Shown: piece by piece, positions 18,929 through 36,859 of the stretch
Layout of the letters: each line of letters starts with the position of its first letter
How positions within the stretch are numbered: position 1 is the stretch's first letter
IMG/VR virus record: IMGVR_UViG_3300044631_000684
Coordinates: 1-37,113 of that record
Direction: 5' to 3' (one strand)
Length of the DNA: 37,113 nucleotides
Origin: a virus
The notes under the pieces: generated by a model
Seen by the model: only the letters and a program-made list of their open reading frames with translations
What the model was told of the DNA's origin: nothing
Database searches by the model: none
Position numbers and translations under genes: made by a program

Positions 18929-19411
18929 TTAAGTTATTGATTTATTGGATTCAAGAAAATTCTGATATTTTTCATAGAAGTCAGCAAAGTTTTTTACTAT
19001 CCAGTACTGACCTCCAGACTTTTCAATTGCTTGTTGGTAGACTTTCTGGTCTTCAGACTGCCTGTCTCTGCCTATCTTTACTTCTATCTTTACCGACCTT
19101 CCAAGGATTGTAGCAGAGATATCTGCTGATCCTTTTGTTGCTGTAGACTTTCCCCAAGTCATAGAACCGATAGTCTTGGTTCTGCCTAAAACATCTGTTA
19201 CTTGCTTTCTGTTGTCGATAGGTCTGCCCATAGTATTTATTCGCTCTGCTTGATATCCACTAAGTTCTAGAAACTCCTTTACGCACTTGGTAAGTCCATT
19301 GGCTGTCTTATCCTCATACTTTGGTGCTGAAATAGCATACTTAGGCACATTAGGATAGGATTCTAGCATCGAGTCTTGCTTGAGTTGTTTAAGAATTTCT
19401 AATGGCTTCAT
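18929..19411 (-). CDS. VRR-NUC-like PD-(D/E)XK nuclease
   Basis: The 160-residue protein has KGSADISATILGRSVKIEVKIGRDRQSEDQ with D97, E110-x-K112 and Q122, followed by KSGGQYWIVK. This is the core of VRR-NUC and related nucleases: G-x-x-D, E-x-K, then a Q-helix. These act on structured or branched DNA in phage recombination and replication. The N-terminal 90 residues are less distinctive. It overlaps the cytosine methyltransferase end by 23 bases. Confidence 0.8.
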   Translation of the reverse strand: MKPLEILKQLKQDSMLESYPNVPKYAISAPKYEDKTANGLTKCVKEFLELSGYQAERINTMGRPIDNRKQVTDVLGRTKTIGSMTWGKSTATKGSADISATILGRSVKIEVKIGRDRQSEDQKVYQQAIEKSGGQYWIVKNFADFYEKYQNFLESNKSIT

Positions 19412-20462
19412 ATTGTTCGATTGCTTTGAATATCTGGTAGACTACCTGAGGTACTACTGCGTTCCCTCCGGCTTTGATTGATTCGTTTCTCCATTTAGAA
19501 AAGGTAATAGAGTCCAGTCTGTTGGAAAGCCCATCATCTCCATTACAAATTGGGGCGCAAGTTGGGAATTTTTCCCATCTACTGAATTCATTGTTGCCCA
19601 ACTCCCCAAATCGTTTTTTTCTCCCCTTCCTCTTTTTATCAATGCTTCCCTGCTGCCGCTCCCCAATCTGTCCGATGCAGTTGGAGTTGGTAGCATCGAT
19701 TGAAACATTATCGCATCCAATATACTGTTCGGCCGATTTGCTCCATTGTTTCTGCTTAACATTTTTGTTGCTCCAGTTTCTATTAAAGCCTCCACTCGTT
19801 CTGGGTGATTCCTTTGAACTGATGTCGGAGTCGGTAGCATTCCTGAATAAAGGATTTGACTCAGTAGGCAATTGTATTTGTTGTTCGGGTGAGGTGATTG
19901 ATTCAATCCCTTTTCTGTCCTTTTCCTTTGTCTCGACTGGTATTCTTGTGGAGTTTCTGCTATCTGCACAAGACTTGGAGTAAGCAACAAACCAAATTCG
20001 GTCTCTTTTGTGGGGGGCGTTGACGCTTGCAGCAGGAAGTAGAAACGGTGAGACTTCGTAGCCTTGAGCCTCCAAGTCAGCCTGCACCTCGTCGAATACC
20101 AACCCTCCATTCCAATTAGTAAGCCCGCGAACGTTTTCGCCCACAACCCAGGTCGGTTGAATCTCTCGAATTGCTCTAAGCATCTCTGGCCATAAATGGC
20201 GCTCGTCTTCTTTTCCGAGTCGCTTCCCAGCAGATGAGTACGGCTGGCAGGGGAATCCGCCTGTAAGGATGTCAATTGTTCCTCGGTGAATAGTGAAATC
20301 TGTCTTGGTGATATCATTGTATGTTATTGCTTTAGGCCAGTAATATTTTAAAACTTTTTGTCCGAACTCATTCCATTCGCAATGGAATACGTTTTCCCAA
20401 CCCATCCATTCTGAGGCTAAATCAAAACCTCCAATTCCGCTAAATAATGATCCGTGTCTCAT
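19389..20462 (-). CDS. C5-cytosine DNA methyltransferase
   Basis: The 357-residue enzyme (start ATG 20462; an upstream start at 20480 lies inside the neighbour) has the catalytic motifs: FSGIGGFDLA (motif I, 7-16), GGFPCQPYS with catalytic C72 (IV), GENV (108-111, VI), RDRIWFVAY (153-161, VIII) and GNAVVPQV near residue 335 (X). It would methylate cytosine in phage DNA, probably to resist host restriction. The zone between motifs VIII and X (about 165-330), where the target domain normally lies, is Ser/Asn/Lys-rich and low in hydrophobic residues. The same DNA is open in a second frame with its own motifs (19454-20317). Confidence 0.9.
   Translation of the reverse strand: MRHGSLFSGIGGFDLASEWMGWENVFHCEWNEFGQKVLKYYWPKAITYNDITKTDFTIHRGTIDILTGGFPCQPYSSAGKRLGKEDERHLWPEMLRAIREIQPTWVVGENVRGLTNWNGGLVFDEVQADLEAQGYEVSPFLLPAASVNAPHKRDRIWFVAYSKSCADSRNSTRIPVETKEKDRKGIESITSPEQQIQLPTESNPLFRNATDSDISSKESPRTSGGFNRNWSNKNVKQKQWSKSAEQYIGCDNVSIDATNSNCIGQIGERQQGSIDKKRKGRKKRFGELGNNEFSRWEKFPTCAPICNGDDGLSNRLDSITFSKWRNESIKAGGNAVVPQVVYQIFKAIEQYEAIRNS
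19454..20317 (-). CDS. Overprinted protein nested in the cytosine methyltransferase gene (287 aa)
   Basis: This frame is +1 relative to the methyltransferase, on the same strand and wholly inside it, beginning at ATG 20317. It is not a random shadow: it carries GMEGWYSTRCRLTWRLKATKS, ETEFGLLLTP, two LPTPT blocks (MLPTPTSVQ, MLPTPTASD) and a C-terminal APQFVMEMMGFPTDWTLLPF then NGETNQSK. I recall these motifs as conserved in phage proteins found beside or annotated as cytosine methyltransferases. The DNA for MMGFPTDWT also encodes DDGLSNRLD in the methyltransferase frame. Function unknown; perhaps a partner of the methyltransferase. Expression is not shown by sequence alone. Confidence 0.6.
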   Translation of the reverse strand: MISPRQISLFTEEQLTSLQADSPASRTHLLGSDSEKKTSAIYGQRCLEQFERFNRPGLWAKTFAGLLIGMEGWYSTRCRLTWRLKATKSHRFYFLLQASTPPTKETEFGLLLTPSLVQIAETPQEYQSRQRKRTEKGLNQSPHPNNKYNCLLSQILYSGMLPTPTSVQRNHPERVEALIETGATKMLSRNNGANRPNSILDAIMFQSMLPTPTASDRLGSGSREALIKRGRGEKNDLGSWATMNSVDGKNSQLAPQFVMEMMGFPTDWTLLPFLNGETNQSKPEGTQ

Positions 20463-20463
20463 A

Positions 20464-20685
20464 CTAAAAAGGCAAATCAAAAGCCTCTAAATGCAATACT
20501 GGAGTCTTATAGTCTGTTCCAAACCTGCTTAGGTATTGAAATGCGAGTACCCTATTATCTTCTCGCATTTTTAACCAAATCCCTTGAGTATAGGTCTTGT
20601 CATATTCTCCAGGTCTTTCTTCCATAAATTTATCCCAGAATACATCAAATGGGATTTGTGATACTTCGTCTAGTGCTTCAATCAT
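20464..20685 (-). CDS. Hypothetical protein (73 aa) ending in SSB-like DLPF
   Basis: The 73-residue helical protein has VFWDKFMEERPGEYDKTYTQGIWLKMREDNRVLAFQYLSRFG and ends LEAFDLPF. The last residues match the tip of the SSB-like protein (NDLPF), so it may bind the same partners; inference. The helical core resembles small replication accessory proteins, but no family is assigned. It lies directly between the primase-helicase and the methyltransferase and overlaps the former by 4 bases. Confidence 0.65.
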   Translation of the reverse strand: MIEALDEVSQIPFDVFWDKFMEERPGEYDKTYTQGIWLKMREDNRVLAFQYLSRFGTDYKTPVLHLEAFDLPF

Positions 20686-22889
20686 TTCTTTAAGTGTTTA
20701 TAAATAGTGGTTCTACTAACATTTAGTAATTCTGCCAACTCAGATCGGTTAAAATCTGGAATTGTCTTATAAATCATATCGATTTTCTTTTCTATAGACT
20801 CATTTTTCATCGACCGAATAATCTCACTAAGTTCATTGGACTCTAAACTGCTTACCTTAATCTTCTTAGACATTGCAATGAAGTAGTTACTTAACTTCTC
20901 TGCTTTTAGCAATGATTCCTTAGTAACAAAATCAAAATCTTTACCTGTCTCGAATGACCATAGAGTATTAATCAACAGAGCAAATCTTGGTACATAGGCC
21001 TTCTGCTTACTCAACATCGATTTCACATATTCTGAGATATCATCAGAGTTCTGCAAATCGGTGATGTTATTAAATATACGCTCCCACTCAATATCTGCTT
21101 GGCTATCGAATCGAATAATTCTACTTTCAATCTCTCCAAACTTATTGTACTGCAAAACTTGATTTCTTACAAGGTTATAGAACTGACTAATGTAAGCCTC
21201 GTACCAATCCAATATTTCTTGGTCAATCGAGTTCTTATTGTAATGCTCAATCTCTTTGTCCGGATAACTTACAAGCAATCGATCTAAAAATCCGTTGTCT
21301 TTGTTTTCCATTGTGGAAATCTGAGAAAATATTCCAGGTTGTATACCACCTAGCACCGGAATCAATGGACTTTGAACAAAACTACTTTTTGCAGTCTTAC
21401 GAGTTAGAATTGCTGCTTGATTAGACCAGCAGGACAACCAGAACTCGAGATCAGAACCTGGCTTATACTTATTCATATCCTTAATCCAACCATTTAGTTC
21501 ATCCTTGAACACTGCAATCCCTACTTGGTTTTCTTCGTGCAAATCCGCCAAGGCTTCAACTGTAATGTCATTAACAATCAATTGCTTTCTTACTGGCTCC
21601 TTAACTTCCTCAACATCTTTCTTTTCTTTTGATGTCAATCGCTCGTATTCCTTGTATTTCTTATACTCATTCTGAAAGTGCTTAATCTCAAAACTGTTTT
21701 TCTTAGCAATTGGAAATATAATGGCATTTATACTAGGTGTTTTTCCTAATCCAGCCTTACCAATCAAGCCAATCCAAATGTTGCAAGATTCTCTCCAACC
21801 AGTTTTTACCTCTACCTTGCAAGCGTTACCGATGCATAGTGAAAGAAGCCAAAGCAAGGAACATCCCATATAGTCGATAGAATGATTAAGTGTTTTCTGA
21901 TTTAACAGAATATAACTCTGTATTGAGTCTGGAAACACATCAATCGGAAATATCAAGTCTTCCTTTGGAATCTCAATCTTCTCAATCTCTACTTTTCGAA
22001 TTTTACGTTCTCCGTAGCCTTCCTTGTAAAGTTCCTTAGCAGCCAACGAGAAGTCTCCATTAAAGTACTTGTAGGCATAGATAGCAAATGGAGTTAAAGG
22101 TGTTTCGTGAGGATAGATTGTTGCAGTAGTAAATAGGTAACATAAACCTGTATCCTTGTAGATAAATCCGTGCAAAGCATCCTTACTTTCTGACTTGCGT
22201 AGAACTATTCGGTCAGATAGGTGCTTAATGGCCATAAATTCGCCTTGTAAAAGGTCAATTGCCTTGTTCCTATGGTTATAGTCATCCCAAGGAGTTAAAC
22301 CGCTGTAATCGCCTTCTTTTGGCTTTATTTCCTCTGTCTTTTCCTCGTAATGAAAATACTTACATAGATTTATCAACAGATCACGTTCCTCTAGAGTAAT
22401 TTCTTGAATCTGCTCATAAGATAATTCACTTACCTGGTTGTCGTAGATGTAAATATATCCGCCAGTACCTCTAGTTTCAATTAAAGCCTGAGAATGCCCC
22501 TTGAGTGTAGCAAGTTTTCTGTTTCCCTCTACCTTAGAACATCTATAGATGATGTGGTATCCGGAGTTAATGGTTTTGTAGATTACGAACTTTCTAGCAA
22601 AATCATCTATGTAATCTGAAACGAATGCTATAAACTCATTCCAAAATTTCTTACCCTCTTGTACACTAGGAAATACTTTTAAGTCGATGTCTATACATTC
22701 AGTACCATAAAATCCTGTAATAATACCATAACCCTTGGTTTTAGACTCTAGCCTTTCTAACTCGGCTTTTTCTATCTTTTTTGTCTGGTATTCTTTCCAT
22801 AAAATCAAAGGTTTTTTACCCTCAGATATTGGCATTACACTGAAACCTGAGTTCAGTAAGTTAATTGCTCTTCCTAATGTTACGTTCAT
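20682..22889 (-). CDS. Primase-polymerase / DUF3987 helicase-like replication protein
   Basis: The 735-residue protein (ATG 22889; the frame extends upstream to 22967 but that adds an unlikely G-tract-encoded PPP segment) has an archaeo-eukaryotic primase-type N-terminus with TECIDIDLK (D67, D69) and a KTINSGYHIIYR block. A P-loop GKAGLGKT lies at 377-384, then FKDELNGWIKDMNKYKPGSDLEFWLSCWSNQ and a GGIQPGIF motif typical of DUF3987. A HTH-like tail (SELAELLNVSRTTIYKHLKK) ends it. It is the likely replicative primase-helicase. A repeat-rich intergenic region lies directly upstream, which could be an origin. Confidence 0.85.
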   Translation of the reverse strand: MNVTLGRAINLLNSGFSVMPISEGKKPLILWKEYQTKKIEKAELERLESKTKGYGIITGFYGTECIDIDLKVFPSVQEGKKFWNEFIAFVSDYIDDFARKFVIYKTINSGYHIIYRCSKVEGNRKLATLKGHSQALIETRGTGGYIYIYDNQVSELSYEQIQEITLEERDLLINLCKYFHYEEKTEEIKPKEGDYSGLTPWDDYNHRNKAIDLLQGEFMAIKHLSDRIVLRKSESKDALHGFIYKDTGLCYLFTTATIYPHETPLTPFAIYAYKYFNGDFSLAAKELYKEGYGERKIRKVEIEKIEIPKEDLIFPIDVFPDSIQSYILLNQKTLNHSIDYMGCSLLWLLSLCIGNACKVEVKTGWRESCNIWIGLIGKAGLGKTPSINAIIFPIAKKNSFEIKHFQNEYKKYKEYERLTSKEKKDVEEVKEPVRKQLIVNDITVEALADLHEENQVGIAVFKDELNGWIKDMNKYKPGSDLEFWLSCWSNQAAILTRKTAKSSFVQSPLIPVLGGIQPGIFSQISTMENKDNGFLDRLLVSYPDKEIEHYNKNSIDQEILDWYEAYISQFYNLVRNQVLQYNKFGEIESRIIRFDSQADIEWERIFNNITDLQNSDDISEYVKSMLSKQKAYVPRFALLINTLWSFETGKDFDFVTKESLLKAEKLSNYFIAMSKKIKVSSLESNELSEIIRSMKNESIEKKIDMIYKTIPDFNRSELAELLNVSRTTIYKHLKK

Positions 22890-23206: not shown

Positions 23207-23662
23207 TTAGTGTAAACTAGTGTACACCCCAGTTCTGATCTTTCTGACCCAATACTGAACTTGTCCATATGGTACTTCTAACTTGTAAGAAATGTTAGCG
23301 ATTTTATATCCATCCTTCCATAAACGTTCTACTTCTCTAAGATTTTTTATGGTTATTCCTTGACGCCTACGAAAAGTAGTCAACTTAATCAAATCACAGA
23401 TTTGATAATGTTTTAATCCAGTACGCTCAGAGATTTGCTTGTAGGGATAATCATTTTTATACATTTCAATCACCAGATCGGCTTGCTTATAATGTTCTGA
23501 GGTATACTTAGACCGCTCATTTTTCTTTAGGTAATCTTTGTAGAGATAATTGTTTACCAAGTGTTTTGAAACCCCTACAAAAGTGGCTATGTTTTTATTT
23601 AAAATCTTTAACTTATATAGCCTTACTATTTCGTCTTTCTGTTGCTGTGTTAGTGATGTCAT
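23207..23662 (-). CDS. Putative DNA-binding protein with three HTH units
   Basis: The 151-residue protein has three similar helix-turn-helix blocks: TQQQKDEIVRLYKLKILNKNIATFVGVS (5-32), YKQADLVIEMYKNDYPYKQISERTGLK (58-84) and IKNLREVERLWKDGYKIANISYKLEVP (104-130). Each reads as a resolvase- or sigma-like HTH (…LY…G…I…). Its end lies in the GTTTACACT repeat cluster, so it is a natural candidate to bind those repeats. The role could be origin recognition or transcription control. No enzyme motif is seen. Confidence 0.7.
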   Translation of the reverse strand: MTSLTQQQKDEIVRLYKLKILNKNIATFVGVSKHLVNNYLYKDYLKKNERSKYTSEHYKQADLVIEMYKNDYPYKQISERTGLKHYQICDLIKLTTFRRRQGITIKNLREVERLWKDGYKIANISYKLEVPYGQVQYWVRKIRTGVYTSLH

Positions 23663-24062: not shown

Positions 24063-24265
24063 AGTTCGTTTTGTTCTTTTGTGTTTACAAATTTTTTATT
24101 GCTTAAATCTTGTTCTTCCTGCAGAGAAATAAATTTATCGCAGTACTCATACTCAAAAGGAGTTTTGATAAAGTAGAACTGATAGTAATTTGGAATTGCA
24201 CAATATCTGTAGCATTTACTTCTGATTGGACAATCTATTCCCTCGCACATAGTTACATCGCTCAT
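24059..24265 (-). CDS. Cys-rich mini-protein, early paralogue (68 aa)
   Basis: The 68-residue protein has cysteines at 7, 12, 18, 22 and 42, with the N-terminal C-x4-C-x5-C-x-R-Y spacing identical to the late gene at 670-846 (MxDxTMC start). This suggests a common metal-binding or structural core placed once in the early and once in the late region. The C-terminus (SLQEEQDLSNKKFVNTKEQNEL) is polar. It overlaps genes on both sides by 4 bases. Function unknown. Confidence 0.7.
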   Translation of the reverse strand: MSDVTMCEGIDCPIRSKCYRYCAIPNYYQFYFIKTPFEYEYCDKFISLQEEQDLSNKKFVNTKEQNEL

Positions 24266-24861
24266 ACCAGTAGTTGTTTAACGTACTCACGACATTCTAA
24301 TACCTTAGCCTTAGCAGATTCAATCACGTTCGAATCATAATCAATGTTAAATTCCTTTATTCTGTACTTGTTTTCCACGTGCGAGTAACTTACCGGTTCC
24401 TCATAAGTTAAATAGTCTGGAGTGTCCTGAAGTGTGTAAACCAATTTGGCCTTTTTTAAGCCCGTCAGATGCATATAAACTTGCAGTTGATAGAAGTACC
24501 CATTGTCAGGCTGTTCGTCGAACAGAGGGAATGTAAAGCAGTCCCACGAGGTTTTAAAATCGTATACTACTCCTTCGTGTAAACAGTCTGGAGTTCCAGT
24601 AAAGAAATCATCTTCAAATTTATCCAGGTTTTTAATCATAAAACTCTGATCCATTGCAATAGAATAAAATTCAATCGCCATATCTTCCAAGGCTAATCCT
24701 TTTTGGATGTACTTGGACTTGATTTGCTTTTTTACTCCGTAAATCTGCTCTTTGTACCAATCTTCCAGGTAACTTTTTGCAGTTTGGGATAAAGTTTCGT
24801 TTTTACTGCGTGCGCTGGTCATCAATTGACCAAGCGCACTTGCTCTGCATTTAAAGTTCAC
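24262..24861 (-). CDS. PD-(D/E)XK exonuclease-like protein (YqaJ/lambda-exo type)
   Basis: The 199-residue protein has ALED (E59), GTPDCLHEGVVYDFKTSWD with D92, D101-x-K103, and a following Q-helix YQLQVYMHLTGLKKAKLVYTLQDTP. This is the active-site layout of the YqaJ and lambda-exonuclease fold. Such enzymes chew double-stranded DNA to give single strands for an annealing protein. The neighbour upstream is an ERF annealing protein, and the ATGA overlap fits a paired recombination system. Confidence 0.85.
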   Translation of the reverse strand: MNFKCRASALGQLMTSARSKNETLSQTAKSYLEDWYKEQIYGVKKQIKSKYIQKGLALEDMAIEFYSIAMDQSFMIKNLDKFEDDFFTGTPDCLHEGVVYDFKTSWDCFTFPLFDEQPDNGYFYQLQVYMHLTGLKKAKLVYTLQDTPDYLTYEEPVSYSHVENKYRIKEFNIDYDSNVIESAKAKVLECREYVKQLLV

Positions 24862-25379
24862 GATAATAGAAGTTTTTCGTTTTGTGATGTTAAAATGTAT
24901 ACCGACTTAATTTGCTCCATTGAAACTTTGCCATTTGCCAAAGAATCCTTGGCTCCTTGCCACTTGACGTGAGCCGGAGTTAATTCCTCTTTTTTACCAC
25001 CGTGATCGTTGGTTGAATCTGGGTCTTTTGTATCATCTATGAGGAAAAGACCGTTAAGCGCGTATTTTCGAGCATAACTAGACGACGAGCCGAAACTTTG
25101 AGCCACATCCATACCTTTTCGATTTACGTCTATCCCGGCCTGCGCAGTAACTGCTCTACCTTCCATATCTTTTTGAATTGCAGCAGTAGATTCTATGAAT
25201 ACAATACCACCTACTTCTTTGACTTCGTCTTCGATAGTCAAGGTACATTCGTACTTTAGAAGCAATGGCTTCAAAGCCTCTAAAATATCTTCAACAGATC
25301 GGTACTTATACTTCCCGAAGGCGTTAAACTGGTTCTTTGGAGCCTTTAACTCCGATTGGATTGCAATTAGTTCTTTCAT
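24858..25379 (-). CDS. ERF family single-strand annealing protein
   Basis: The 173-residue protein matches the ERF superfamily: LIAIQSELKAPKNQFNAFGKYKYRSVEDILEALKPLLLKYECTL, then a beta region and the signature GMDVAQSFGSSSSYARKYALNGLFLIDDTKD, which fits the G-x-A-x-S-Y-x-x-R-Y/K-x-L block. It anneals complementary strands during recombination-dependent replication. It overlaps the exonuclease gene by 4 bases. The leader upstream is A/C-rich with no Shine-Dalgarno. Confidence 0.88.
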   Translation of the reverse strand: MKELIAIQSELKAPKNQFNAFGKYKYRSVEDILEALKPLLLKYECTLTIEDEVKEVGGIVFIESTAAIQKDMEGRAVTAQAGIDVNRKGMDVAQSFGSSSSYARKYALNGLFLIDDTKDPDSTNDHGGKKEELTPAHVKWQGAKDSLANGKVSMEQIKSVYILTSQNEKLLLS

Positions 25380-25583: not shown

Positions 25584-25746
25584 TTTCTATCCATTCTTTT
25601 GATACAAATACTATCCATTGGTTGCCTATTTTTTTAGGCGCTTGAGTCCACTCTGAAGGAAATATACCTGATCTGATAATCTGGTGAACTCTAGTTGATT
25701 TTTCGCTATAGCCTTTAAGTACTCCGTACTCTGTGGCTGACATCAT
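25570..25746 (-). CDS. Excisionase/MerR-like DNA-binding protein (58 aa)
   Basis: I chose ATG 25746 because it overlaps the upstream stop as ATGA; ATG 25758 would add four residues. The protein has MMSATEYGVLKGYSEKSTRVHQIIRSG (a winged-helix-type HTH), then PKKIGNQWIVFVSKEWIENGRA (wing and strand). Such small proteins bind DNA as excisionases or regulators. No integrase is seen, so a regulatory role is more likely. Confidence 0.6.
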   Translation of the reverse strand: MMSATEYGVLKGYSEKSTRVHQIIRSGIFPSEWTQAPKKIGNQWIVFVSKEWIENGRA

Positions 25747-25982
25747 TTCGTAAAGCATTTTGTAACTTCGATTTCTAATTGTTCAATAATAAAAGGATCA
25801 AGAATTGCACAAATCGTGCGGTAATGGTCAGAGAATTTTTCGGTTAGGGAATCGTAAATGTCGAAAGTGATTGATTTTCCACTACCGAAATAAAGTTCTA
25901 AAGCGATTCCGTCATTTTCAAACGACTCCAGTTCTAAGGTTAATCCTGACTGGTCTAAGCAGTAATAATGATCTTTTAACAT
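25743..25982 (-). CDS. Hypothetical protein (79 aa)
   Basis: The 79-residue acidic protein has strands GLTLELESFENDGIALELYFGSGKSITFDIYDSL followed by helices. It is the first gene downstream of the TTTTCCACTA repeat array, and the strand carries a leader with the ACTAAACAAACAAA pattern. A promoter candidate CTTGCA...TTATAATTTTA lies at about 25998-26035. Function unknown. Confidence 0.55.
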   Translation of the reverse strand: MLKDHYYCLDQSGLTLELESFENDGIALELYFGSGKSITFDIYDSLTEKFSDHYRTICAILDPFIIEQLEIEVTKCFTK

Positions 25983-26059
25983 TTTTTTGTTTGTTTAGTG
26001 TGATGTAAAATTATAATTTGTTGTAATGCAATGCAAGAGAATTGTAAAATTTATTTTTG

Positions 26060-26472
26060 TTTTCCACTAGCGGTAATTTTTTTGTTTTACTGGTTTTATT
26101 TTCCACTACCGATTTCGTTTTCCACTACCGCGTTGCAAATTTCGTTTTCCACTACTGGTTTTATTTTCCACTACTACCTAGGATTTCGTCTAGGTTTTGG
26201 ATTTCGTCTAGGGTTTTATATTTCCACTAGGTATTTAGATTTCCACTACTGGTTTTAATTTCCACTAGATCGCGGCCTTGTTTCTGTTTTCTTCTACTAA
26301 TTAACCGCGCAAATTTACAAGGCGTTTAAATTTTAGAACTGGTTCTAACTGGTTCTTTTTTTTGTTTTCGTCTACTAGTTTGGATTTCGTCCACTACTTT
26401 TGTTTTATACTACTGGTTTTATTTTCCACTATGGATTTTAATTTTCCACTAGGTATTTGGTTTTCCACTACG
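26060..26472 (+). repeat. Array of about 17 TTTTCCACTA repeats in non-coding DNA
   Basis: The non-coding stretch 25983-26564 contains about 17 copies or variants of TTTTCCACTA, all in one direction. Clear copies start near 26060, 26098, 26117, 26145, 26164, 26220, 26239, 26258, 26422, 26442 and 26461; variants read TTTCGTCTA or TTTTATACTAC. Spacing is irregular and often close to multiples of about 20 bases. Spacers include CGGTAA, GGTATTT and CTGGTTTTA patterns. No CRISPR-like uniformity is present. The open frame read through it is low-complexity and looks spurious. Confidence 0.8.
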
Positions 26473-26564
26473 CTCGCGCGCTTGGTTTATTTGGCTATTT
26501 TTAAGCCCATAGACAAACGATAAATTTTTACTAGTGGTAATATATACGCGAAAATTTAAACGTC

Positions 26565-26756
26565 TTAAAACGCCGTTATTTTTTGCAGGTTGTACGCGAC
26601 GCAATCTAAACCGTACTCAATCGAATAACCTATTTTAAATAAGTCGTTTTCAAGTCGTATTAAGTTCGTGTAGTTTTGTTCCTTGGTTAAATAATGCGCT
26701 AAAATAGCCCGCAAGTTAGCGGGCCAAAGTTCAGGGAATTCGAATAAATCTTCCAT
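26565..26756 (-). CDS. Conserved hypothetical protein (63 aa)
   Basis: The 63-residue protein starts MEDLFEFPELWPANLRAILAHYL and ends GYSIEYGLDCVAYNLQKI. The pattern L-P-x-x-V/L-x-x-I-L ... G-Y-x-x-x-Y-G-L-D-x-x-x-Y-N-L is one I know from short proteins in Bacteroidetes mobile DNA. It is helical throughout. It lies just left of the repeat array on the same side as the early unit. Function unknown. Confidence 0.65.
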   Translation of the reverse strand: MEDLFEFPELWPANLRAILAHYLTKEQNYTNLIRLENDLFKIGYSIEYGLDCVAYNLQKITAF

Positions 26757-27042: not shown

Positions 27043-27276
27043 TTAAATCGATTTTACTAAATTTACGGTCGCTTGAATGTCGTAAGACTGGAATACAATA
27101 CAGCCTCCGAAATCCTTCCCTCGGTAAACTTTCCCGCCTATTTTTCTAGACTTTTTTACCACTAGGTCGAATTTTTCTAGAATAGTAAGGCCTTCGCCTT
27201 CGCCGTCTCTAAGTAGGTCGTAAAAATGTACCACGTATCGAGGATTTCCGTTTATGTCGTTATTTATTCGTTTCAT
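27043..27276 (-). CDS. Hypothetical protein (77 aa)
   Basis: I use ATG 27276, one base after the upstream stop; the frame extends to 27354 but the preceding part overlaps the neighbour. The protein reads MKRINNDINGNPRYVVHFYDLLRDGEGEGLTILEKFDLVVKKSRKIGGKVYRGKDFGGCIVFQSYDIQ. I have seen this mixed alpha/beta pattern with G-x-x-R-Y-V-x-x-F in Bacteroidetes phage proteins, but no function is known. Confidence 0.6.
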   Translation of the reverse strand: MKRINNDINGNPRYVVHFYDLLRDGEGEGLTILEKFDLVVKKSRKIGGKVYRGKDFGGCIVFQSYDIQATVNLVKSI

Positions 27277-27277
27277 T

Positions 27278-27793
27278 TTATTGAGCGTTTTGTATTGTGT
27301 ATACTTTTTGTCTGGATAATTCGTAATTTTTAAAATCCCAATTTCTAGGAACATTTAGGCCAAATAGCTCGCTAATTTCTTTAATGTCGCTTATCAAGTT
27401 GTTAGCCAAATAAAAATTTACCGTACTTTTGCGGGCGGTCAACTGCTTTGCCAAATATCCCTCAGCCTGTTCCGTCATTACTTTGATAATTGTCGGTAAT
27501 TGATCCAAGTCAAAAACACGCGGCAAAGGAACTCTAAAAACTTTTATATTGTCTGGGATTGCGTTCCATAGTTCCGAGCAATGCTTTGCAGTCGTTGGGC
27601 TGTAATATCTTGAATTTACAAAACAAACTTTTTCGCCGTTGTTAGCCGTTACAAACTTTGCTCCTATGTAGTGATAACCGTAGGAATAGGCCGTGCTATA
27701 TTCAAAAAACATTGACTTTGTGCGGCCGTGTGTTTGTGATTGAATCGCAAAAGTTTGGGCCAATTGATTGTTTGAATTAAAAACCGTTTTCAT
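27278..27793 (-). CDS. Conserved hypothetical protein (171 aa)
   Basis: The 171-residue protein has NSNNQLAQTFAIQSQTHGRTKSMFFEYSTAYSYGYHYIGAKF near its start. The F-F-x-x-x-x-x-Y-S-Y-G-x-H block recurs in phage and plasmid proteins of unknown function. The rest contains a helix-rich AEGYLAKQLTARKSTVNFYLANNL region. No catalytic motif is obvious. Its leader matches the A/C-rich consensus (ACTAAACACACAAACGAA). Confidence 0.6.
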   Translation of the reverse strand: MKTVFNSNNQLAQTFAIQSQTHGRTKSMFFEYSTAYSYGYHYIGAKFVTANNGEKVCFVNSRYYSPTTAKHCSELWNAIPDNIKVFRVPLPRVFDLDQLPTIIKVMTEQAEGYLAKQLTARKSTVNFYLANNLISDIKEISELFGLNVPRNWDFKNYELSRQKVYTIQNAQ

Positions 27794-28335: not shown

Positions 28336-28476
28336 TTAGTACCCGATAGCGTCCAACTGTATGCCGTAAAAAATACCCGCGATAATTACCACGGCCATAA
28401 TACCAAACGCGATAAGGTTTGCTTTTGTGTTATCGCTCATTTTGCTTGCTGTGGTGTTTGTGTTTGAAGTTGTCAT
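28336..28476 (-). CDS. Small single-span membrane protein (46 aa, or 34 aa from the inner ATG)
   Basis: Two in-frame ATGs are possible: 28476 (46 residues, with a Thr/Asn-rich N-terminus) and 28440 (34 residues). The first fits the leader ACTAAACACACACACAAATG. The membrane span is LIAFGIMAVVIIAGIFYGIQ. It heads a row of three tiny membrane genes and is preceded by a promoter at 28510-28540. Confidence 0.5.
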   Translation of the reverse strand: MTTSNTNTTASKMSDNTKANLIAFGIMAVVIIAGIFYGIQLDAIGY

Positions 28477-28509
28477 TTGTGTGTGTGTTTAGTGTTTGTG
28501 ATTGTTTAG

Positions 28510-28540
28510 TAAATGTACAAAGTTTTGTAAATGTATGCAA
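28510..28540 (-). promoter_or_regulatory. Early promoter 2
   Basis: On the - strand: TTG (28540-28538), 20-base spacer, TACATTTA (28517-28510). The spacer contains a near-palindrome TACAAAACTTTGTA overlapping the -7 box (28516-28529). Confidence 0.65.
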
Positions 28541-28558
28541 GTAATTTGGTAATTTTTT

Positions 28559-28642
28559 TTACTTTTTTTTATTTATTTTTTCGTTTAAAATATTTGGAAC
28601 TTTATCCAATTCGTTTTCGAATATTTCAAGTAGTGGTTTCAT
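28559..28642 (-). CDS. Very small protein (27 aa)
   Basis: A 28-codon frame from ATG 28642, two bases after the preceding stop, giving a charged peptide (MKPLLEIFENELDKVPNI and a KINKKK tail). Support is spacing only. Low confidence. Confidence 0.35.
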   Translation of the reverse strand: MKPLLEIFENELDKVPNILNEKINKKK

Positions 28643-28644
28643 TT

Positions 28645-28884
28645 TTATTTTGTTTTGCCTTCCAATAAATCCTCAGCAAAATAGTTTGCCATTCTAACCC
28701 AATCTTTTTTGGTTGAATTATTATAGCCATCAAAATGAATTGGAAATCCGTTTCTATAAATATTTATTCCCCAATATTTTGAAGTTCCGTTATTAATACC
28801 AAATTCATAAAAATTTCCATTTACAGTGATTGATGCTTCGTAGTTGTGTGCTTTGCCTTTTTTGAATTTTAGTACCTTTTCCAT
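28645..28884 (-). CDS. Hypothetical protein (79 aa), first early gene
   Basis: I use ATG 28884; an upstream TTG at 28917 would overlap the promoter -7 box. The protein begins MEKVLKFKKGKAHNYEASITVNGNFYEFGINNGTSKYWGINIYRNGFPIHFDGYNN and ends in a Lys-rich helix. It is beta-rich with basic patches. It is the first gene after the early promoter at 28915-28945, so its product should be made first. Function unknown. Confidence 0.6.
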   Translation of the reverse strand: MEKVLKFKKGKAHNYEASITVNGNFYEFGINNGTSKYWGINIYRNGFPIHFDGYNNSTKKDWVRMANYFAEDLLEGKTK

Positions 28885-28914
28885 TTTGTCCTTTGTTTTA
28901 GTGTTATTGTTTAC

Positions 28915-28945
28915 CAAATGTACAAACGTTTGTAATTATGTGCAA
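28915..28945 (-). promoter_or_regulatory. Early promoter 1 with perfect palindrome
   Basis: On the - strand: TTG (28945-28943), 20-base spacer, TACATTTG (28922-28915). The perfect 14-base palindrome TACAAACGTTTGTA (28921-28934) overlaps the -7 box, so a bound repressor could block it. Confidence 0.75.
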
Positions 28946-29025
28946 GTATTTGTAAAAATATTTTTTATTTTTTTTTATTTTTTTTCAATTACCTTTAGGA
29001 CTGAATAAACAGTTTTTATCACTTT

Positions 29026-29043: not shown

Positions 29044-29355
29044 ATGGGACAAAACGGAGGCGCTAGGCCTGGCGCTGGTCGGAAGCCTAAAATATTAGAA
29101 ATCAAGTTAATTGAACAAATGGACGCGCTCGCAGTCCCCGAGCAAATTTGGAACGCGCTTTTATTTAAATGCCAGCAAGGCGATACCCAAGCGATTAAAC
29201 TTTGGCTGTCTTATCGTTTTGGATTGCCAAAGCAGCAAATTGACGTAACTACGAATGGTGAAAAAATAGCGCCTCCTATTCAGTGGATTGGGAAAAATAT
29301 TGCGATTGAAGCGGCAAAGGTGATAAATGAGGAAGACGAACTAAACGAAATTTAG
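29044..29355 (+). CDS. terS: Small terminase subunit-like protein
   Basis: The 103-residue protein starts GQNGGARPGAGRKPK, a basic Gly-rich N-terminus common to many phage small terminases and DNA-binding proteins, followed by a helical segment. Its place four bases before the large terminase gene makes the small terminase call likely. It would recognise the packaging site. The operator-like palindrome lies directly upstream of its start. Confidence 0.7.
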   Translation: MGQNGGARPGAGRKPKILEIKLIEQMDALAVPEQIWNALLFKCQQGDTQAIKLWLSYRFGLPKQQIDVTTNGEKIAPPIQWIGKNIAIEAAKVINEEDELNEI

Positions 29356-35539: not shown

Positions 35540-36859
35540 ATGAGCGATATTAAATTATCAATTTTGATTCCTTCAGTATCTGAGAGGAGAAACACTTTTT
35601 TGCCTAAATCCTTAGAAATGCTTTATGGTCAACTAGAAGGTTTGGATGCGGAAAAGCAAAAACAAGTTGAAATTATTTATTTAATTGACAACAAAACAAT
35701 TATGCTTGGGGATAAGAGAAATCTTATGATTAGTATGGCAAGCGGTAAATATATTTCATTTGTAGATTGTGACGATAGGATTGAGCCTGATTACATTTCT
35801 ACTATTTTGGAATCTATTGATTCAAATGCGGATTCTATTGTATTTGAGGTCTCAGTTTCATTAAATGGCAATAATCCTAAAATCTGTTACTATTCTAAAG
35901 ATTTTCCTAACGACTACAATACTGAGGAGGCATATTTTAGGTTGCCAAATCATATTCCAGTAATAAAAAAGGAAATTTCTACAAAGGTTTCTTTTCCAAG
36001 TTTACCTAGAGCTGAGGATGCTGCTTATGCTAGGATTCTAAAATCACATCTAAAAAGTGAATTTAAAATCAATAAAGTTCTTTATCATTATGATTACAGC
36101 GATTTAACAACCGTTGCTCAAGAGTATATCCCTAATATTAGAAACAAACGAAAAAGTAATATGAATCCAATAGTAGATGTAGTTTTTATTTCAAACGCTT
36201 CAAAATTAGGGTCTAAAATGACTCAAAACGCGATTGACAGTTGCATTCAAGCAGCAAATGGATTGGAGGTTAATTGCATAGTAATTGAGGAAAAGACTAA
36301 TTTATTTTACAGAAATGCAGCGACATACAATCCTCATCAAAAATTTAATTACAATAAGTTTTTAAATTTTGGTGCAGTTAGAGGCAAGGCTCCTTGGATT
36401 ATGTTTTGTAATAATGACTTGATATTTAAGAATGGTTGGTTGCATAATTTATTGGCTGCTGACTATCAAATAGTAAGTCCTATTGCTCCTGGTGATTTCA
36501 GACAAAAGGATGTTAATGAAAATGAAATAGGGTGGCAGTGTGGCAGAAACTTATCTGGTTGGGCATTTATGATGAAAAGGTCATTATACAATGAAATTGG
36601 TGGACTAGATGAGGATTTTGATTTTTGGTTTGCAGACAATTCTTTAGTCGAGCAATTAAAGAAAATTGATATGCCTCCAATGTTAGTGCCTTCTGCTAAA
36701 GTAAATCATTTGGGTAGCCAAACATTAAAAGAAAGAAGCATTAGTGATAGAAATGATTTAATGTGGTCTAAACTAGAATTATTTAATCAAAAATATAATC
36801 AAACTTTATTTTCAGATCATCCAAAATTCTTAGAATGGAAACAATCGCAATCTGCATAA
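35540..36859 (+). CDS. Two-domain family 2-like glycosyltransferase (right copy, 439 aa)
   Basis: Counterpart of the 1385-2695 gene, with three extra N-terminal residues (MSDIKLSIL). The acidic motifs DCDD (first half), CNND and GGLDEDFDFWFADN (second half) are kept. The linker after the first helix differs most (LDAEKQKQ versus LPEQDQKE). The 25-base overlap with the next gene is kept. Here the gene has its own start context (AGGACAACTTATG) because the methyltransferase is absent. Confidence 0.82.
   Translation: MSDIKLSILIPSVSERRNTFLPKSLEMLYGQLEGLDAEKQKQVEIIYLIDNKTIMLGDKRNLMISMASGKYISFVDCDDRIEPDYISTILESIDSNADSIVFEVSVSLNGNNPKICYYSKDFPNDYNTEEAYFRLPNHIPVIKKEISTKVSFPSLPRAEDAAYARILKSHLKSEFKINKVLYHYDYSDLTTVAQEYIPNIRNKRKSNMNPIVDVVFISNASKLGSKMTQNAIDSCIQAANGLEVNCIVIEEKTNLFYRNAATYNPHQKFNYNKFLNFGAVRGKAPWIMFCNNDLIFKNGWLHNLLAADYQIVSPIAPGDFRQKDVNENEIGWQCGRNLSGWAFMMKRSLYNEIGGLDEDFDFWFADNSLVEQLKKIDMPPMLVPSAKVNHLGSQTLKERSISDRNDLMWSKLELFNQKYNQTLFSDHPKFLEWKQSQSA

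Follow-up and report, generated by a model that had tools for sequence, protein, structure and literature searches.

An uncultured phage carries, in front of its replication operon, a conserved array of oriented repeats that we propose, with a probability of about 0.6, to be the iteron-type replication origin of its lineage. The window, by which we mean the whole analysed stretch of 37,113 nucleotides, contains a single array of this kind; the array is real, its place, orientation and gene context are conserved among relatives with one array per genome, and it is probably functional. We favor an iteron origin because the array is single and oriented, its unit has the length of an iteron, AT-rich DNA flanks it, it precedes the replication operon, and it is absent at similar promoters. 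Beyond these observations, we infer that a protein binds the array, which protein it is, that the strands open and that the site acts as an origin. The original prediction, made from the letters of this DNA, had offered three readings of the repeats; of these the iteron origin is now the favored one, a general regulator is less probable, and a decoy for a host factor gained no support beyond the repetition itself.

The array lies in a non-coding gap of 582 bases (25983-26564) between the 79-aa gene, p79, and a 63-aa gene (26565-26756, - strand). On the - strand, which is the coding strand of the genes flanking the array, the T of TAG in successive units falls at 26470, 26451, 26431, 26412, 26396, 26374, 26296, 26267, 26248, 26229, 26210, 26192, 26173, 26154, 26127, 26108 and 26069. 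The core TAGTGGAAA is present in 11 of the 17 units; on the + strand, eight of these 11 are exact copies of TTTTCCACTA and three read ATTTCCACTA. The remaining six are variants (TAGACGAAA three times, and TAGTATAAA, TAGTGGACGAAA and TAGAAGAAA once each), all of which keep TAG and AAA. Direct reading of the positions thus bore out the earlier count of about 17 copies, with the copy coordinates correct to within one base and all 17 units in the one orientation claimed for them. The motif TTTMCACTA occurred 11 times in the gap, whereas 1000 dinucleotide shuffles of the gap averaged 0.026 copies and never exceeded 1. When at most one mismatch was tolerated and the entire window was searched, 19 copies were observed versus 5.2 expected, and none of 100 shuffles reached 19. 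An extra exact copy lies within the p79 gene (25875-25884). The coordinates of the array and its surroundings are collected in the table.

Features of the array and the replication region in the window
Feature	Position	Strand	Remarks
Direct-repeat array	26060..26473	-	17 units nnnTAG...AAA, most steps 19 nt
AT-rich left block, TTTAAATTTTCGCGTATATATTACCACTAGTAAAAATTTATCG...GGGCTTAAAAATAGCC	26474..26564	-	sequence conserved; 94/96 genomes by anchor
AT-rich spacer and operon promoter (TTG-N-TAnnTTT), leader CACTAAACAAAC	25983..26059	-	
p79, 79 aa, first operon gene	25743..25982	-	adjoins every array whose contig reaches it
p62, 62 aa, predicted winged helix	25570..25758	-	leading candidate binder
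Erf-type single-strand annealing protein	24858..25379	-	PF04404, 2.3e-33
Exonuclease, YqaJ/RecE/Cas4-like	24262..24861	-	phrog_5715, 7e-55
HTH3, 151 aa, HTH segments	23207..23662	-	another candidate binder
Primase-polymerase/DUF3987 helicase, C-terminal HTH	20682..22886	-	

Two other accounts of the repeats were tried and rejected. A coding explanation fails on the open frames across the array (26031-26258 and others), which are read-through of the repeats, and on the array filling the gap between two conserved genes. Against an RNA element stand the lack of any Rfam match and the place of the repeats, upstream of the operon promoter; a fold of the array strand was more stable than shuffles (z -3.3), a value from one sequence only, to which we give no weight. 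Inside the array, at 26319-26380, there are also AACCRGTT dyads (AACCAGTTAGAACCAGTTC), which are present in about half of the genomes.

Relatives were gathered with a primase-helicase scan, which yielded 80 loci on uncultured viral contigs, and with further pattern, p62 and HTH3 scans, after which duplicates were removed. Directly 5' of the p79 gene, 95 distinct uncultured relatives carry 3-16 forward copies of TAGTG(G/T)AAA and no reverse copies. This motif search in relatives had been set beforehand as the refutation test, and it revealed no drift; place, orientation and core are all kept in the 95 relatives, which supports a recognised site. In a pattern scan for two neighbouring units, clusters of at least five copies were found in this lineage alone and adjoined p79, save on contigs ending at or near the array, and the other matches had 2-4 copies each. 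Each of nine long records of relatives (27-37 kb) holds one cluster and a few strays; a tenth long record lacks the region, and its primase sits at the record end. Two relatives also have a pair of motif copies, spaced by about 38 nt, upstream of HTH3 (4873 and 4911 in L042; 474 and 511 in L044).

Outside the lineage, a scan of about 85,000 prokaryote species, with one genome per species, found no arrays of this kind; the best host-genome matches were pairs or small unrelated groups, and the two-copy matches look like chance. Searches for cultured relatives returned none for p62 or HTH3, one insignificant match for p79 and only distant ones for the primase, and no plasmid relatives of p62 were found. 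Nor did 299 genomes from the family to which an Aquimarina genome belongs yield p62, a negative result that carries little weight. Nine of these genomes have DUF3987 helicase halves, whose short flanks, with one exception, contained no 9-mer repeated four times. Given the Bacteroidetes-type promoter described below and the resemblance of this Erf to the Erf proteins of Riemerella phages, the hosts of this phage and its lineage are probably flavobacteria, as far as sequence can indicate. The array itself could serve to recognise members of the family in metagenomic data.

Across 666 copies, the unit is approximately CCnTAGTGKAAAAyAAAAC, with a length of 17-19 nt; these copies were picked by the core TAGTG(G/T)AAA, so only the flanking information is unbiased, and to it belong the CC before the core and the AyAAAAC after it. 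Steps between neighbours are mostly 19, 27, 29, 39, 17 and 33 nt. They follow 10-bp increments in two main classes, 17/27 and 19/29/39, which is not one clean helical phase and is a pattern whose reading is limited by shared descent. The most constant units are the promoter-proximal ones, at -87 and -126. The choice of G or T at core base 6 tracks the p62 and p79 types better than the erf, exo, HTH3 or primase types, and the 148-aa type of HTH3 occurs with both motif classes. Because p62 and p79 adjoin the array, this covariation may reflect physical linkage.

Downstream of the array, the operon on the - strand runs p79, p62, a 58-aa gene, Erf, exonuclease, HTH3 and the primase-polymerase/DUF3987 protein. 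The last of these is likely the replicative primase-helicase, and its C-terminal HTH is present in 18 of 18 members. For p79 we obtained a confident alpha/beta fold prediction with no confident structural match. The recognition helix of p62, EKSTRVHQIIRSG, does not vary among 40 different sequences, and the AlphaFold2 model is a winged helix (pLDDT 87). Among structural matches to this model, lambda Xis with DNA ranked first, at Z 4.7 and 16% identity (1.8 A over 45 residues). The match is modest and not much above unrelated rows, and a Z below 8 may reflect no more than a shared arrangement. Foldseek E-values for p62 were not significant, and TubR was among its weak fold matches. We found no tyrosine or serine recombinase in the window, and an excision role for p62 is therefore unlikely here. 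As a proposed origin, the array would probably be bound by p62, by the primase-helicase, or by both.

AT-rich DNA lies on both sides of the array. On the promoter side, the stretch 25960-26019 ranks in the lowest 1% of 60-bp windows for stability; the lowest values of the whole window occur at two other early promoters, 28947-29006 and 28550-28609. On the other side, the left block is a candidate auxiliary origin element. It has no significant hairpin (stem-loop z 0.5). Nearly all relatives contain TATCG and GGGCTTAAAAATAGCC in the left block, and TTTTAAGCC-like repeats are found in relatives. Between left block and array, several relatives (L046, L066, L007 and L085) have short tandem repeats, GCCATG-like or GACCGACC-like, whose GC content is higher.

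The replication-operon promoter is of the Bacteroidetes type, with TTTG near -33 and TAnnTTTG near -7 (consensus in PMC6847099). A relaxed pattern recovered it in 79 of 96 genomes, it is visible in the alignment, and the array ends about 30 bp upstream of its -33 element. It is one of three near-identical early promoters on the - strand that share CTTGCA-N-TAnnTTT and similar leaders (28882-28946, 28474-28541 and 25980-26037). Upstream of the replication operon there are 11 core copies, versus 0 and 0 upstream of the other two, so the repeats are not a standard component of such promoters. In the two array-less promoters, the spacer contains a dyad, TACAAA-N-TTTGTA, which may be an operator. 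GC skew, which had been suggested as a check for an origin, gave weak support at best: measured on the coding strand, it is near 0 on the left side of the array and about +0.1 on the right side, without an abrupt shift at the repeats themselves, and most of it is accounted for by the direction of the genes.

Three further features of the window lie outside this region. The C5 cytosine methylase gene (19389-20480, - strand) contains a 287-aa open frame (19454-20317) on the same strand in another frame. Two glycosyltransferase paralogues (phrog_8858) are found near both record ends, at 1385-2695 and 35540-36859. Finally, 27043-27354 (- strand) is a good match, in a probable flavobacterial phage, to the terminal-repeat-encoded protein TreK of a Staphylococcus phage (PF24229).

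In the mechanism we propose for an iteron origin, an early DNA-binding protein of the phage would bind the units cooperatively and distort the DNA, an adjacent AT-rich stretch would then open, and the phage primase-polymerase/DUF3987 helicase would load at the opened stretch. The 62-aa winged-helix protein is the first candidate for the binder, with the C-terminal HTH of the primase-helicase as the alternative. As the array is upstream of the operon promoter, binding would probably also tune expression of the replication operon. More speculatively, and with considerable doubt, the array may be a new type of iteron origin at which a 62-aa Xis-like protein, rather than an initiator of the RepE, TrfA or O type, would coat the oriented repeats as a filament and recruit the primase-polymerase/DUF3987 helicase. 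If so, an excisionase-type fold would serve as the replication initiator in a lineage without an integrase. To our knowledge, the origins of phages that encode a primase-polymerase/DUF3987 helicase have been little studied. With a conserved, sequence-defined array and few candidate binders, the replication start of an uncultured family becomes directly testable at the bench.

The rival to which we give most weight, as possible though on balance unlikely, is an operator array, at which p62 (or HTH3) would bind cooperatively, in the manner of phage 186 Apl or P2 Cox, and repress or activate the replication-operon promoter with no direct role in initiation. The short distance from array to -33 element, the good conservation of that promoter and the constancy of the units nearest to it speak for such an operator, as does the predicted Xis-like nature of p62, and the sites of Apl are likewise oriented direct repeats beside early promoters (PMC7498355). 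However, Apl sites have five or seven repeats in steps of 10-11 bp, whereas the steps here are 17-39 bp and carry the array to 400-500 bp from the promoter. We prefer an origin to a general regulator because each genome has one array, beside the replication operon, and because the two similar early promoters have none; a single site per genome fits an origin at least equally well. By analogy with autoregulated replicons, both may be true.

The other rivals have far less in their favor. A partition site resembling a centromere, with TubR/ParR-type direct repeats upstream of an operon in a phage that has a plasmid stage, is improbable: oriented repeats do precede an operon that encodes a small winged-helix protein, and TubR appeared among the fold matches, yet Pfam and PHROG scans of the operon genes found no ParM-, TubZ- or ParA-type NTPase, the window yielded neither recombinase type, and there is no pointer to a lysogenic plasmid stage. 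Still less probable is an array that serves a host factor, such as DnaA or a regulator, as decoy or binding site. Many copies could titrate a protein, and TTTTCCACTA resembles the DnaA box TTWTNCACA save at the last position, but variants such as TAGACGAAA break the CAC core while keeping TAG and AAA, and the scanned prokaryote genomes have no such array. True DnaA boxes were also rejected, as no array copy matches TTWTNCACA and the window has three matches versus 5.3 expected, none of them near the array. Terminases can recognise repeated sites, and a candidate small terminase gene lies about 2.6 kb away (29044-29355); even so, a packaging (pac) region to which the small terminase subunit binds is the reading we consider most remote, given that the array does not adjoin the terminase genes and is tied to p79, while genes on the terminase side vary among relatives.

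Among known systems, pRN1-type replicons combine a primase-polymerase, a helicase and a winged-helix/HTH domain in one protein and have a small DNA-binding protein in the operon (PMC4234260); this phage likewise encodes a primase-polymerase/helicase with an HTH in one protein and a small predicted DNA-binding protein in the same operon. That comparison also speaks against an iteron origin, as other primase-polymerase replicons use a stem-loop instead, and pRN1 requires one of 100 nt 3' of the gene (PMC4234260). A stem-loop origin of that type was rejected here: the 3' end of the primase gene (20682) falls within the following gene (20464-20685), so there is no room for it. SaPI Rep and SCCmec Cch2 are self-encoded helicase/primases whose C-terminal domain binds short iterons (PMC7581432), and our phage resembles them in encoding its own helicase/primase; their repeats are directly downstream of the helicase gene, whereas here some 3 kb and several genes separate the array from the primase-helicase gene downstream of it. 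A non-coding region also holds the repeats bound by RepA of V. cholerae PLE (PMC7145576). The systems of phage 186 Apl, lambda Xis and P2 Cox have a small winged-helix protein, a fold predicted here for p62, and, like our system, oriented repeats near an early promoter (PMC7498355). The repeats of Apl and other excision factors are one helix turn apart (PMC7498355, PMC11963761), in contrast to steps of mostly 17-39 bp here, in a window in which no integrase was found.

In the early region of phage lambda, iterons of about 19 bp adjoin an A+T-rich stretch (PMC5043065), as do those proposed here. They are near-perfect inverted repeats inside gene O that bind dimers, while the present units are oriented and non-coding, and we saw no lambda-type O/P pair in this phage. 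Iteron plasmid origins (RK2, F, P1, R6K) have 2-7 oriented direct repeats of 17-22 bp, an AT-rich neighbour and winged-helix initiators (PMC4980987, PMC5043065). The phage arrays differ from these in having more copies (3-16) at variable steps, with no RepE/TrfA-type initiator found here and no DnaA boxes near the array. They have in common with the iteron class multiple oriented repeats of one 17-22 bp sequence, and the unit lengths of 17 and 19 nt match those of the RK2, F and P1 iterons (PMC4980987).
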